NCBI GenBank assembly: GCA_002477755.1
Contig: DLKD01000088.1
Coordinates: 1-41,745, forward strand
Length of the DNA: 41,745 nt
Direction: 5' to 3'
Source: Gordonia sp. UBA7599
Lineage (GTDB): Bacteria; Actinomycetota; Actinomycetes; Mycobacteriales; Mycobacteriaceae
Shown: positions 3,031 to 33,300 of the stretch, one piece after another
Numbering within the stretch: position 1 is the stretch's first letter
Layout: each line of letters opens with the position of its first letter
The notes under the pieces: generated by a model
Database searches by the model: none
What the model was told of the DNA's origin: nothing
The model's input: only the letters and a program-made list of their open reading frames with translations
Made by a program: the position numbers and the translations under genes

Positions 3031-3666
3031 ATGACCAACGACGACACGGCGCATGTTCCCACCCCCGCCGATCCCCCTGTGCCCGCCGGCGCGCACGGTC
3101 CCGACGAACACTCCGGCGTTGTAGAGCAAAAGAAGAGCTTCAGCGAGACGGTGAGCAGCCTCGTCAAGCGCATGCTGCTCGCACTGATCGGCGTGGCGAT
3201 CCTCGTCGTGCTGTACTTCATCCTCCGCTCAATCGCGCCGCGCTGGTGGGCCGATACCGTGGCGAGCATTGTCGGGACCGACGCCGGCTTCACCACGGGC
3301 GTGCTCTACGGACTGGTCATCGGCATCGTCTGCACGGCCGTGCCCCTCGTTTCGTTCGCTATGGCGGTTGCCTCGTGGAACAAGCTCAAGCACTTCTTCG
3401 GCGTCATCTTCCTGCTGGTGGGCATCGTTTTCGCCGTTCCCAACGTGATGACCCTCGCGATCAACCGAGCCGATCCGGCACAGTCGGCATCCATCCGCTC
3501 GGCCCAGACGAAACTCGGCGACATCATCGGCTTCCAGGGCGCCACGCTGATCGGCGCGATCATCGGCGGCCTCATCGCCCTGATCGTCATCTATTACATC
3601 GTCAACTACAAGCTGCGCGGCAAGAAGATCCGCGCCGCAACCGCCGTGCAACCCGAGGACAAGTAG
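3031..3666 (+). CDS. hypothetical four-helix membrane protein
   Basis: 211 residues. The first 45 are hydrophilic and rich in Asp, Pro and Thr (cytoplasmic tail). Four hydrophobic segments follow: LLALIGVAILVVLYFILRSI, VLYGLVIGIVCTAVPLVSFA, FFGVIFLLVGIVFAVPNVMT and LIGAIIGGLIALIVIYYIVN, with a lysine/arginine-rich C-terminal tail. I recognise the type from mycolata genomes as a conserved membrane protein of unknown function, but cannot give a role. The ATG at 3031 is chosen over the upstream ATG at 2992, because translation from 2992 would run through promoter-like sequence. The gene stands alone, followed by the structured RNA region. Confidence 0.75.
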   Translation: MTNDDTAHVPTPADPPVPAGAHGPDEHSGVVEQKKSFSETVSSLVKRMLLALIGVAILVVLYFILRSIAPRWWADTVASIVGTDAGFTTGVLYGLVIGIVCTAVPLVSFAMAVASWNKLKHFFGVIFLLVGIVFAVPNVMTLAINRADPAQSASIRSAQTKLGDIIGFQGATLIGAIIGGLIALIVIYYIVNYKLRGKKIRAATAVQPEDK

Positions 3667-3703
3667 CGCGACATGGCCGCCCAACACCGTCGGCGAAAAC
3701 CCG

Positions 3704-3732
3704 TTGCACGCCGTCGGCACTGGGGCTAACTT
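3704..3732 (+). promoter_or_regulatory. sigma-A-type promoter of the structured RNA
   Basis: TTGCAC (3704-3709) and TAACTT (3727-3732) are separated by exactly 17 bases. They match the -35 (TTGACA) and -10 (TATAAT/TANNNT) consensus well for a high-GC actinobacterium. The predicted start of transcription, about 6-8 bases downstream, falls at the first base of a 6-bp hairpin (3740-3755), which is where a structured RNA would be expected to begin. Confidence 0.6.
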
Positions 3733-3737
3733 GATCT

Positions 3738-4560
3738 TTCCGTGCGATTGCACGGGACGACAACACAAGACCGGCATGGCGGATAATCCGGGGAAACCCG
3801 GTGAAAGACATGTGACAACCGTCGCCGGGAGCAATCCCGGTACCCCATGCACTCCGAGCCGAAATCCTTCACCTCAGGGTGGAGGCAAGCCCGAAGCAAT
3901 CTGATGACCCCGCCCGTCGGGGTCGGGAGAGCCAATCGGTGACCCAGCACCCGCCAGGTGCTGTTCAGTAGCGACGGGACCTTGCGGCAGAGGCGGGAGT
4001 ATCAGTCCGAGGCAGTCAATCGAGGGCGTACTCCATGAACGCGGCAGCGGGGCACGGCAGCTTCGCCAAGGCGGGAGAGATCAAGTAGGCGTTGACGGCC
4101 GAACGGTCGAGGGTGTGCGGTATTCCGGCCTCCAAAGGGTCGGAGCCGCGCGGGAATGCGCATCCTCAGTCAGATCCAGCCCCTAGCTCAGTGGTAGAGC
4201 GACTGACTTCGGATCAGTCTGTCGCCGGTTCGATCCCGGCGAGGCATCCCAAAGCGAAAGACATTCCTCGGCAGCGCTGCGACAGTGTCCTAAGCCCTGG
4301 CCCTTCGGGGAACCGGGGCACCCGCGGGTCCGCAAGACCCAAGGGTGTTCATGCATCAGTAGCGGTAGCACAGAGACCGGCCGGTCACTGTGCGACGCGA
4401 AAGTGGTGGAGAAGCTGCTGCCGTCACGCGTGGCGCCACGTACGGCGCTGGACATGGTGGATACCGTCGAGAGGCGGTGGACAGGCGGAAAACCCGGCGA
4501 CACGGGAATAGCGACCGTCAAAGGCCACCGAGAGCAGGGATTTAGTCTCAGTCCCCGCAC
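3738..4560 (+). ncRNA. candidate large structured noncoding RNA with embedded tRNA-like module
   Basis: This is the only long gap without a credible protein gene (3667-4567). The + strand reads as a dense series of hairpins after a 17-bp-spaced promoter: 3740-3745/3750-3755; 3788-3792/3797-3801 with a GAAA loop; 3825-3830/3835-3840 with a GCAA loop; 3866-3873/3878-3885 (8 bp); 3906-3912/3918-3924 (7 bp); 3945-3951/3957-3963 (7 bp); 4125-4131/4137-4143; the tRNA-like module 4177-4251; 4295-4303/4308-4318 capped by UUCG; 4326-4330/4336-4340; 4368-4378/4383-4393; 4420-4424/4442-4446; 4534-4542/4550-4558. Longer pairings also enclose groups of these, such as 3774-3779/3845-3850 and 3996-4001/4029-4034. 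GNRA and UUCG caps are typical of folded RNA rather than of coding sequence. Size is about 820 nt. It is not tmRNA or RNase P by any motif I know. A giant ornate RNA such as the GOLLD class, which can contain a tRNA, is the nearest analogue in architecture, but I cannot assign it. It converges with the cyclase gene. Confidence 0.6.
4177..4251 (+). tRNA. tRNA-Arg(UCG)-like module inside the structured RNA (acceptor stem degenerate)
   Basis: Three of four cloverleaf arms are perfect. The D arm is 4186-4189/4197-4200 with an AGTGGTA loop. The anticodon arm is 4202-4206/4214-4218 with loop CTTCGGA, giving anticodon UCG (reads CGA, arginine). There is a 5-nt variable loop, and the T arm is 4224-4228/4236-4240 with loop TTCGATC. 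U8 and A9 are present, and CCA is encoded at 4249-4251. The acceptor stem is poor: 4177-4183 pairs with 4241-4247 at only four of seven positions, and the outer two pairs fail. The 3' acceptor strand 4241-4247 instead pairs at six of seven positions with 4263-4269 downstream. It may therefore be a tRNA mimic held inside a larger RNA, or a decayed tRNA, rather than a working tRNA. Confidence 0.6.
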
Positions 4561-4567
4561 CCCCCAT

Positions 4568-5446
4568 TCACAGCTTGGGGATGACCGAGAAAACAGTGGT
4601 CTCCTTGGGCACGCCCTTGGCGCGGAACCGTTTGCGCCGCAGGACGAAACGCTGCGCATCGACCTCGTCGACGACGGCGTCACTGATGAACACCTCGCCG
4701 GCGCCCGCGGCCGCACCGACCCTGGCCGCGATATTGACGTCGACGCCCAGATAGTCGTCGTCGACGGCCCGCGGCATTCCGGTGTGCAGTCCGACGCGCA
4801 GCTGGGGCCGATAGCCGTCGACCTCGATCGCACTGATCGCGGTGATCGCCTCGAATGCGGCGTAGATGGCCTGCTCCGCGTCGGCGAACACGGCCATGGT
4901 GCCATCACCCAGATTCTTGACGACCCGACCGCCGTGACGGCCCACCACCGCGGTGGTCGCCGTGTCGACGGCGCGGATGAGTTCCAGAACGTGGTCGTCG
5001 CCGACACGCAAGGCCCAGGTCGAAAAGTCGACGAGGTCGGTGAACATGATCGTCGCCGCGACCGGTTCGTCGGAGGTGCGCGATTCGGACTTGGGCCGGC
5101 GCCGCGTCAGCGACTGCCACATCTCGACGGTCGCCAGGCTCAGCTCTCGCATCGCGCTGGGCTGCTCGCCATGGGCCTGCTCGATGAGCCGGGCGACTCG
5201 GTCGCTGGGCCCCTCCCCGCCGACGGCCGGCGAATCGGGGACAAGACTGCGCGCGGCACGGGCGATCGAGAGGGCACCTTCGCTCGCGTCGGTGCGCGCC
5301 AGCAACTCCGCGGCCCGCTTGGCGACGGAGTCCGGACGGATCGCATCCTTCGCGTCAGGCTTTTTCACAGCAGCCTTCTTCACGGTGGCCTTTTTCGCTG
5401 CCGGCTTCTTCGTGACAGTCTTCTTCGGCGTGTTCGACGGGCTCAC
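4568..5446 (-). CDS. class III adenylate/guanylate cyclase with H1-like basic N-terminal tail
   Basis: 292 residues from a GTG start. Residues 1-40 are an unusual KKxxxKKPAAKKATVKK-type tail, rich in Lys, Ala, Thr and Pro like histone H1 or the HupB C-terminus. A short helical region follows, then a class III cyclase catalytic domain from about residue 128: IMFTDLVDFSTWA (first metal aspartate), GGRVVKNLGDGTMAVF (second metal aspartate, substrate-side lysine), LRVGLHTG, and GVDVNIAARVGAAA (transition-state Asn and Arg). All key residues appear intact, so it should make cAMP (or cGMP). It is cytosolic, with no membrane segment. The start overlaps the stop of the upstream 115-residue gene as GTGA, so the two are translationally coupled. 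The 3' end abuts the structured RNA. Confidence 0.88.
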   Translation of the reverse strand: MSPSNTPKKTVTKKPAAKKATVKKAAVKKPDAKDAIRPDSVAKRAAELLARTDASEGALSIARAARSLVPDSPAVGGEGPSDRVARLIEQAHGEQPSAMRELSLATVEMWQSLTRRRPKSESRTSDEPVAATIMFTDLVDFSTWALRVGDDHVLELIRAVDTATTAVVGRHGGRVVKNLGDGTMAVFADAEQAIYAAFEAITAISAIEVDGYRPQLRVGLHTGMPRAVDDDYLGVDVNIAARVGAAAGAGEVFISDAVVDEVDAQRFVLRRKRFRAKGVPKETTVFSVIPKL

Positions 5447-30331: not shown

Positions 30332-33300
30332 GGTGCACCCCCCGCCAACAGGTCGGACAGGTCGACGACGAGCCCGGCCGGCACGTCCCACTGGAATACG
30401 CCGCAGCCGGACGGAGTGTCCGGACCGATCATGCCGCGCACGAAGTGGTATTGCACGGGACCCAAGTGACGTTCCGGCGAATATCCCGGCAGGCGCCACC
30501 GGAGGTAGCGGTGCAGCGCCACCGAATACAGCAAGGCCTGCAGTGGATAGTGCGAAGCCATCATCTCCGCCGCCATCGCCTCGGTGGAGAAGACCTCCGC
30601 GCTCAGATCGCCGGCTTGGATCCGGTTGGTCTTGTAGTCGACGACGACGAAGCTCGGCACCCCGTCCGCGCCGGTGATCCGCAGCACCGAGTCGATGCTG
30701 CCGGTGAGGAACCCGTGGAACCGCTCGTCGGAGACGCCGGCGACCTCGTCGGCGTAAGGCCGCAGTGGGTCGTCGTCAGGCAGGTGCTGCCGCATCAGCG
30801 CCGCCACCGAGGCGAGGTCGAAGCCGCCGTCGACATCAGACAGGGGTAGTTCGAACTCCATCTCGCTGAGGCGGTCGGCGGGCTTGACCGCCCACAGATC
30901 GCCGAATCCCAGCGGGGTGGTGAGCACCCCCTCGAGAGCCACGGCCAGGGCATCGACATCAATGTCGAAGGCCGTGCGCCGGGCGCCCTGCGCGCACATC
31001 TCGCGCACGTGCGCCGACCGGTCATCGGCGGCCGTGTCGACGTGCTCCAACACCTCGTGGACGAGGGTGCCGAAGCGCGCGCCGAACGGCATGCCGTTCA
31101 TCAGCGACGGCGCACCCGGCGGTGATTCCTCCGCCGACTCGGCGTCGGTAGCGGTGTCAACGGGTTCGTCGACCACTTCGCCCTCGCGAACGACCTGGTC
31201 GTCGGGCTCGCTCCCGACAGCCGATCCCGCTTCCTCGCCGTGCGCTGCAGCATGAGCCGCCTCGTGCGCGGCGCGGACGATCGCCGAGTACGACGTCCTG
31301 CGGAACGACTGATCGACCTCGCGGTCGAAACGGGCGACGACGAGTTCCCCGTCGGCCCCGGACTTCTCCGACGGCTGCCAGCGCGGCGGTTTCGCGTGTT
31401 TTCCGGCGTGCTCGATGACGATGCCGCTGTGGAGCGAGGCGACGTCGCGCAACACTCTCTCCTCGTGCGCGTCGTCATGCAGCGCGACCTCGTCGGGAAT
31501 CGGGTAGCGGCCGCCGGAGCGCATCGCGGCGGTCCGCTCGGGTGCCGTGAACAGGATCCGGTGCAGCGCGCCGGCGTGCGTGGTGGTGGTGGGCGCCCAC
31601 CAGGCGACGACCTGCGACCGTGCCCGAGTCAACGCGACGTAGAGCAGGCGCAGGTCCTCAGCCGAGTCCTCCGCGTCGGAGCGCTTCTTGCGCTCGCGGA
31701 ATCCTTTAGCCCGCTTCCCGCCGACGTCGATGTGCCGCACGCCGTCGTCGTCGTGGTAGGTGAAGGTTTTGGGGTCGAACATGCGCGCCCCGTCCCACCC
31801 GAACGGTACGTACACGATCGGGAACTCCAGCCCTTTGCTGCCGTGCACGGTCATCAGTTGGACTGCCGCGGTGTCGCGGTGCAGGCGGCGGGTCTGGTTT
31901 GAGCGGCGGGTCGCCGCCTTGGGATCGGCGACGCATTCGCCCAGCCACAGCGTCAAACCGCTGAGGCCGCATCCCGTTCCGGTGGTGTACTCCCCCATCA
32001 GCGAGGCCACCTGCAGCACGTCGGTGAGCAGCCGCTCCCCGTCCGAGAGTGCAAGGACCCGCTCGGCGGTGCGCCGGTCGGCCAGCAACCTCGCGGTCAT
32101 CGCGGCCGGACCGTGCTTGTCGAAGACCCTCGCCCAACCTGCGAGCGCGGCGGCCAGATCGCCGACGGCGGCATCTCCCCCGGCTTCCAGCGCGAGCGGT
32201 TCGACGCCCAGCAGCGGCGTCTGCGCCGCAAGCCGGACCCGGCGTGCGTCGGAGGGCTTCTCCATCGCCGAGAGCACATACCACCAGAACCGCGCCGCGT
32301 CGGTGCCGAAGACGCTCTGCCCACCGGTGACGACGGACGCGATGCCGTATTCGGCAAGCGCCTGCTGCAACGGTTCGATGGTCTTGTTCGCCCGCAGCAG
32401 CACGGCAATGTCGCCCGGCTCGATACGACGGCGCACCGGCCCGTCGCAGTCGTCGACGAGAATCGTCGCCTCGGAAGCCAGTGCCGTCGCGATATCGGCT
32501 GCGACGTCGTCGGTGACGCAGTCGCGCACACCGACGGCCTTCGGCACGCCGTACTGGGAGGCCTCGACGTGGCTGAGGTCGCTGCGGTTGAAGAAGCGCA
32601 GGCGCAGCGGCGCCGTACCGAAGATGCGGGACTCGGTGTGGCGGGCCGTGACCGGTCGCACCGCGATCCGCGGGTCGCCGAGCTCGGCGTCGACGAGGAT
32701 CGCGCCGAGGGCGTCCACGAGCGGACCGTCCGAACGCCAATTGTCGATGAGATTGCGCTGCTCCTGCGCCTCCTGCGCGGCGGCGAGATAACTGAGGACC
32801 TCGGCACCCCGGAATCCGTAGATCGACTGCTTCGGGTCACCGACCAGGACCATCGGCCGGTGGTCGTGGAAGCACCGGCGCAGGATCTCCCACTGTTGGG
32901 GATCGGTGTCCTGGAACTCGTCGACGAGGACCACCTCGAAACGGTCGCGGATCCGCTCGCACGCCGCCGGCCCCCACTCCTCGTCGGTGATGATCTCGTG
33001 CAGCCTGCCCTGCAGGTCGTCATAAGTGCGCAACCGCGACCAGCGCTTGCGGATGTTGACGCGCTCGCGGACCGCGGTCGCGAACTTCACCCATGTGGTC
33101 CCGACTGCTGATGGCGGGTCCTGCTCGGTCGGCGCGAGGACTGCGATCGGGTTGCGCACCACATCGCGGGCGACCTCCTCGGCGACCTCGAAGGGGTATT
33201 CGCCGTCGGGTGCCCAGGCGAACTTGCCCAGGTACAGGTCGCGACCGGTCTCGCGGGCGAGGTCGTCGACGTCTTCGACAAGTGTGTGGTGCTGCTCGCG

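Follow-up and report, generated by a model that had tools for sequence, protein, structure and literature searches.

The window, a 41,745-nt stretch of contig DLKD01000088.1 from Gordonia sp. UBA7599, carries, among genes for a CAAX-protease-like protein, a membrane protein and a cyclase, a region that almost certainly encodes a GOLLD RNA about 820 nt long (Table 1). Run in E-value mode over 3600-4700, Infernal matched the full GOLLD model RF02032 (416 positions, 1-416) to the plus strand at 4108-4554 with 130.3 bits and an E-value of 7.3e-36. Comparison of copies in unrelated neighbourhoods shows a conserved core that runs from 3772 to about 4560, and the predicted transcript, 3739 to about 4560, measures 822 nt, both of its ends being predicted; many GOLLD members exceed 800 nt. 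A search of 3600-4700 for terminator-like sites found none, which leaves conservation as the only basis for placing the 3' end. A 139-aa open reading frame at 4092-4511 has GC contents of 0.63/0.68/0.63 at the three codon positions versus 0.69/0.49/0.85 in the cyclase gene, and the open reading frames inside the RNA region lack the third-position GC bias of the neighbouring genes, in agreement with the initial annotation, which had seen no credible protein gene here.

Table 1. Features of the GOLLD gene, in window coordinates
Feature	Position	Strand	Evidence
Promoter-like pair TTGCAC - 17 nt - TAACTT	3704..3732	+	Recurs in 9/10 Gordonia copies; weak by consensus
Leader with hairpin 3739-3756; predicted start about 3739	3739..3771	+	Fold z -3.96
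GOLLD 5' domain	3772..4107	+	84.7% mean pairwise identity, 8 copies; R1 matches L134 and L136; aligns with plasmid pCBMA213_1
GOLLD 3' domain including linker	4108..4554	+	RF02032 model 1-416, 130.3 bits
tRNA-like domain in linker, anticodon position UCG, acceptor stem degenerate	4179..4246	+	RF00005, 49.9 bits
Hairpin with self-complementary loop GGCC at 4379-4382, candidate subunit contact	4368..4393	+	Loop conservation
3'-terminal hairpin	4534..4558	+	Helix 40 of the consensus structure, 96.9% of cells paired, 2 pairs doubly changed

The window copy lies under the Rfam gathering cut-off for RF02032, which at 150 bits is a curation threshold and not a structural feature; a default Rfam scan, which applies this threshold, therefore reports the embedded tRNA alone. 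Eight copies in the genus, including that of the window, score between 123.8 and 160.1 bits. Two exceed the cut-off (160.1 and 151.3 bits) and are 78-82% identical to the window copy; the other six are excluded by the gathering score. Because the RF02032 match spans just the 3' half of the conserved element, the 5' half was represented by a separate model, R1, built over its first 132 positions from ten Gordonia copies and the copy on plasmid pCBMA213_1. R1 matches two viral GOLLDs absent from its training set, L134 (49.4 bits) and L136 (34.9 bits), where the match starts 333 and 328 nt ahead of the 3' domain versus 336 nt in the window; the remaining seven of the nine viral GOLLDs gave no match. 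Two weaker matches were set aside: one at 30663-30773 of the window (18.1 bits, E 0.019), which we take as noise, and one in Siphonobacter, a chance match with no Rfam counterpart that reaches 14.5 bits with R1 and lies, by our own reading, inside an apparent protein gene.

By these matches, homology to GOLLD covers both the 5' and the 3' domain. The initial annotation had proposed a large, structured, GOLLD-like noncoding RNA, possibly a new class of giant RNA, and had named an Infernal search of Rfam as a check. That search returned a known class, so that the RNA stays and its novelty goes: the locus encodes a divergent GOLLD, recognised by RF02032 in its 3' domain and by R1 and alignment with the plasmid copy in its 5' domain, and covariation adds to the case for a structured RNA. 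ROOL, tmRNA, RNase P RNA, 6S RNA and SRP RNA have no Rfam match up to E 10 in 3600-4700, matching the lack of tmRNA, RNase P, 6S and SRP signatures remarked on before.

Folding of 3739-4560 yields -363 kcal/mol (z -2.8), and 0 of 20 dinucleotide shuffles are equally low. The comparative evidence for structure is stronger than this single-sequence energy. An RNAalifold structure from eight full-length copies (alignment A1, which omits G009, split over two contigs, and the broken copies of G025 and G070) contains 227 pairs, with 97.1% of 1814 cells paired and 50 of the 227 pairs changed on both sides with pairing kept. The paired fraction and the number of doubly changed pairs were reached in 0 of 500 shuffles; slid versions of the structure pair only 38-46% of cells, a comparison that favours the consensus, derived as it is from the same eight sequences. 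A separate column shuffle is a weak control, since it destroys helices outright. Further pair types show no excess over shuffles (319 of 500 reach the observed number). A second alignment, A2, omits G009 and G070. The pattern of substitutions shows that base pairing in this RNA is under selection. Both the ornate folding and the compensatory changes among homologues that the initial annotation had proposed or sought are thus to be seen, in a fold below all 20 shuffles and in the covariation among the eight copies.

Upstream of the RNA, TTGCAC (3704-3709) and TAACTT (3727-3732) are separated by exactly 17 nt. A sigma-70 consensus scan detected no promoter here, the pair being a poor sigma-70 match, and the promoter claimed for this RNA stands as a recurrent, promoter-like sequence with a weak fit to consensus: the pattern TTG-N3-N17-TA-N3-T is found 39-92 nt upstream of the core in nine of ten Gordonia copies, ahead of GOLLD in different neighbourhoods, and dinucleotide shuffles of each upstream region yield it in 0.3-3% per copy. 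The broken copy of G025, whose leader length was set by hand, does not have it. Leaders vary in sequence, with a fold z below -2 in four of ten and between -1.5 and +0.3 in the others. In the window, transcription would start at about 3739, at the base of a first hairpin of seven pairs, as the initial annotation had predicted.

GOLLD or its remains occur in at least 11 of 59 Gordonia genomes, among them Gordonia araii, aichiensis, asplenii, sputi, jacobaea, amarae, sp. ABSL49_1 and one Gordonia MAG. RF02032 found eight of these, and a DNA search added G009 (on two contigs) and G025; the eleventh is G070. The DNA search covered 37 of the 59 genomes, so broken copies in the other 22 may be missed. 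The G025 copy has lost its 3' part, and the G070 copy (L072:1099-1477), which occupies the site where G017 holds an intact copy, lacks 226 nt internally. The copies fall into five neighbourhoods: A (window, G062), B (G034, G027), C (G010, G006), D (G017, G009, G079, G070) and E (G025), with flanks shared only in part in A, B and C. By qcrB, genomes that share a neighbourhood are closely related, and identity over the GOLLD 5' part tracks that of qcrB (r 0.86, from 45 non-independent pairs among ten genomes, with a partial qcrB for the window genome and one of two qcrB copies used for G025). Between groups C and D, identity is 89-92% in GOLLD and 85-86% in qcrB, a difference that makes transfer between the groups possible and counts against pure vertical descent. 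In G006:C68 (L030:4421-6046) and G010:C1 (L029:6702-8315), GOLLD is adjoined by a second qcrB-like gene for cytochrome b, which shares about 87-89% identity with the other copy.

GOLLD stands free among ordinary genes in Gordonia. Most flanking genes in the other carriers are of common kinds (cytochrome b, M24 peptidase, GNAT, glyoxalase, dehydrogenase, TauE), the exceptions being an HNH protein that adjoins GOLLD in G006 and, in G017, a DUF222 protein that weakly matches HNH. Open reading frames resembling IS3-type transposases, by our own reading and without a family search, lie near GOLLD in G010 (L029:3223-4820). A phage, prophage or tRNA-array location, typical of GOLLD if not defining, was not seen in the window: ARAGORN called no tRNA, 24 of 30 window proteins match Pfam families of which none is phage structural (six have no match), and ten neighbouring proteins gave PHROGs matches that were weak or to a general glycosyltransferase. 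The initial annotation had likewise seen no phage gene nearby, and its suggestion of a chromosomal, domesticated RNA gains support.

In G005 and G008, which have no GOLLD, a POT-family transporter gene separates the membrane-protein gene from the cyclase gene that comes after it (L036, L067, L068; compare window 3666-4568); the POT gene adjoins GOLLD in G062 and is missing from the 3666-4568 interval of the window. At locus A in G005, G008 and G064 and in a second G025 region there is no GOLLD remnant, insertion boundary or target-site duplication to be read, and no clean empty site was readable. Among 397 genomes of the order a wider search recovered two, as it did among 394 of the class, and in both cases these were the window genome and G006 only. 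Since each species was represented by one genome and the filters were stricter, such a search would miss strain-specific arrays.

Broken copies in two of 11 carriers, together with absence from most genomes of the genus, indicate that GOLLD is dispensable. The same observations, along with the weak promoter consensus and the lack of a detectable terminator, would suit a remnant, now functionless and in decay, of a tRNA array, plasmid or phage, but this reading is improbable in light of covariation across the whole RNA, the recurrent promoter motif and an identity comparable to that of qcrB in ten genomes. In the Gordonia species group we very probably see an active, selected gene.

The 3' domain of GOLLD RNAs has a variable linker, sometimes with a tRNA, and in the window the RF00005 match falls in the variable stretch of RF02032. 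With three arms kept, it bears out the internal tRNA-like domain claimed earlier. All ten Gordonia copies in which linker sequence is present match RF00005. Among nine copies, the anticodon and T stems are 100% paired (with four and two of their five pairs doubly changed, respectively) and the D stem 97.2%; the acceptor stem is 73.2% paired, its three inner pairs being kept and its outer four mostly failing. Further pair types show no excess over shuffles in this domain (258 of 500 reach the observed number). The window acceptor has at most four or five of seven pairs and lacks a seven-pair stem with a CCA-ready 3' end. By position, the anticodon is UCG in the window and G034, UUC in G062, UCA in G027 and G006, GAU in G010 and GCA in G079, and G017 and G025 have 8-nt anticodon loops. 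For G034, G027, G006 and G062 the ARAGORN anticodon is the positional one; for G017 ARAGORN reports no complete anticodon, and at the window domain and in the G010 and G079 copies it calls no tRNA.

Since the acceptor is mostly lost and the anticodon varies between species, an ordinary tRNA is very unlikely. A role as carrier or precursor of a functional tRNA would accommodate the 49.9 bits of RF00005 and the tRNA-Gln, with an acceptor nearly complete by eye, that viral L134 has at the same place in its linker, but we consider it extremely unlikely: the distal acceptor pairs mostly fail, two copies have 8-nt loops, and ARAGORN is silent in three. In addition, PMC6582537 reports that in M. aubagnense a separate pseudo-tRNA was not detected. 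A similar pseudo-tRNA is present in the plasmid copy (40.1 bits, model 4-67), so the degenerate form is probably older than the free-standing copies.

Linkers of viral GOLLDs bear on a different reading, namely a working GOLLD RNA whose insert plays no part itself and is only a spacer left by an array tRNA. By eye, six of nine viral GOLLDs (L126, L129-L132 and L135) have A/U-rich linkers with no visible tRNA, none is visible in L127, and the L136 linker is tRNA-like; the linker is also described as disordered in the solved structure, where it lies inside the cage (PMC12286853). These observations fit a spacer, but we hold that reading to be doubtful, as the RF00005 match persists in every Gordonia copy with a linker and in the plasmid copy, and the anticodon and T stems are maintained by two-sided changes.

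Published GOLLD is a hollow homo-oligomer, a 14-mer whose half-shells are joined by self-kissing loops (PMC12286853). The Gordonia RNA has a hairpin with the self-complementary loop GGCC (eight of eight Gordonia and six of seven viral copies aligned, AGCU in the plasmid copy and AGCA in L130), which resembles those loops in kind. A hairpin near this loop, present in four of the seven viral copies aligned, is missing in Gordonia, so the contacts or interface of a cage may differ. By analogy, we think it reasonably probable that Gordonia GOLLD assembles into a cage, in which case the RNA would form a hollow homo-oligomer like the published one, with the tRNA-mimic linker on the inside. An RNA that works without a cage, for instance as a monomer that binds ribosomes via its tRNA-like domain, would fit the retained tRNA-like elbow and the ribosomes reported bound to GOLLD in pull-downs (PMC12286853), but appears improbable given that the self-complementary loop is retained in sequence or kind and that the sole solved GOLLD is a 14-mer.

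Taken together, we lean slightly towards a GOLLD gene with its own promoter-like motif whose RNA would form a cage with tRNA mimics that may serve as bait or scaffold. The last element is the least certain step and is offered tentatively: instead of working as a tRNA in translation, the mimics may bait, or provide a scaffold to, a factor recognising the elbow or the anticodon arm of tRNAs. GOLLD levels are reported to rise in phage lysis, and ribosomes to bind GOLLD in pull-downs (PMC12286853); tRNA arrays have been put forward as a putative anti-defence system (PMC12803027), and phage tRNAs as a means to evade tRNA-targeting defences (PMC10264068). In its most specific form, which as a whole we regard as unlikely, Gordonia would have made a mobile-element RNA into a free-standing, promoter-driven host gene, and the cage would display up to 14 translation-unfit tRNA mimics, selected for elbow and anticodon arm, not for acceptor, and diversifying in the anticodon loop, as expected of bait for a tRNA-recognising factor, e.g. 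a tRNA-cleaving toxin or a stalled-ribosome factor. The one target class examined, an anticodon nuclease as the baited factor, found no support. Long matches to PF13166, a PrrC-like family, occur in three of 59 genomes (G072, G022, G063), none of which has GOLLD; above the cut-off, the family is found in six of 59 genomes, comprising two of 11 GOLLD carriers (G025 and G079, with short matches) and four of 48 others.

The structure of the GOLLD cage has been solved and its function is not known. A free-standing copy with a promoter-like sequence removes the phage and the tRNA array from this problem, and bacteria in culture collections supply natural intact, broken and absent strains for comparison. 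The linker pattern of three tRNA arms kept, an acceptor lost and a changing anticodon is a clue to what the interior of the cage meets. The Rfam cut-off conceals most of the Gordonia copies (six of eight).

In nucleotide searches with the window copy as query, phages gave matches to the tRNA part alone (six records) and plasmids none. With the G027 copy and E up to 10, pCBMA213_1 was the one match beyond the tRNA part among the best 25 of 356 plasmid records, and there was none beyond the tRNA part among the best 30 of 338 phage records. A pattern search for the 5' domain in viral contigs found nothing, and RF02032 scored 180-307 bits in nine of the 16 IMG/VR loci scanned (of 17 viral loci in all, L137 was outside the Rfam scan, and L129 and L135 outside the hairpin-loop alignment). 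Two viral loci have short stretches that match the whole tmRNA model, L127:5274-5356 (+, 83 nt, 51.8 bits), about 500 nt ahead of the GOLLD 3' domain, and L128:11319-11437 (-, 119 nt, 66.7 bits); these may be tRNA-like parts with no mRNA part. An HNH gene as travelling partner was also considered and discarded: 51 of 59 genus genomes have relatives of the plasmid array's HNH protein (36-52% identity), on contigs other than that of GOLLD except in G010, where the two share one 5.2-Mb contig and are more than 1.6 Mb apart. The HNH protein next to GOLLD in G006 shares with it a stretch of 76 residues at 30% identity, and the DUF222 protein of G017 nothing.

Compared with known systems, ROOL RNA is likewise large and ornate, has a variable linker and is often found close to tRNA islands (PMC12286853), but is absent from the Rfam hits up to E 10 in 3600-4700. 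Viral GOLLDs share the RF02032 domain in nine cases, the 5' domain in two (L134, L136) and a linker tRNA in L134, and differ in that seven of nine do not match the Gordonia 5' model; the 5' region is described as less conserved in GOLLD (PMC12286853). The env-38 GOLLD, the 14-mer cage of the same source, shares by description the two-domain layout, the linker position and a self-complementary hairpin loop in the 3' domain; in contrast, the Gordonia linker holds a tRNA-like domain. Mycobacterial GOLLD lies in tRNA arrays with pseudo-tRNAs, for example in M. aubagnense (PMC6582537; see also PMC9569102), and a structured RNA of about 430 nt is reported in about 81% of arrays (PMC5966550).

The closest relative is the GOLLD of pCBMA213_1 (Mycolicibacterium sp. 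CBMA 213), which aligns end to end with the Gordonia RNA, 5' domain included, and has the same kind of linker pseudo-tRNA with a degenerate acceptor. Its neighbours are tRNA-Leu on one side and tRNA-Asn on the other, and the surrounding stretch contains 23 tRNA genes and an HNH gene, whereas the Gordonia gene has no such company: ARAGORN calls no tRNA anywhere in the window, and the gene has a promoter-like motif of its own. The plasmid RNA starts about 5 nt past tRNA-Leu and ends 13 nt ahead of tRNA-Asn, so close that tRNA processing may release it there. In the literature searched we found no paper that pairs GOLLD with Gordonia. GOLLD itself is already known, also with pseudo-tRNAs; what is unusual here is the free-standing Gordonia variant.
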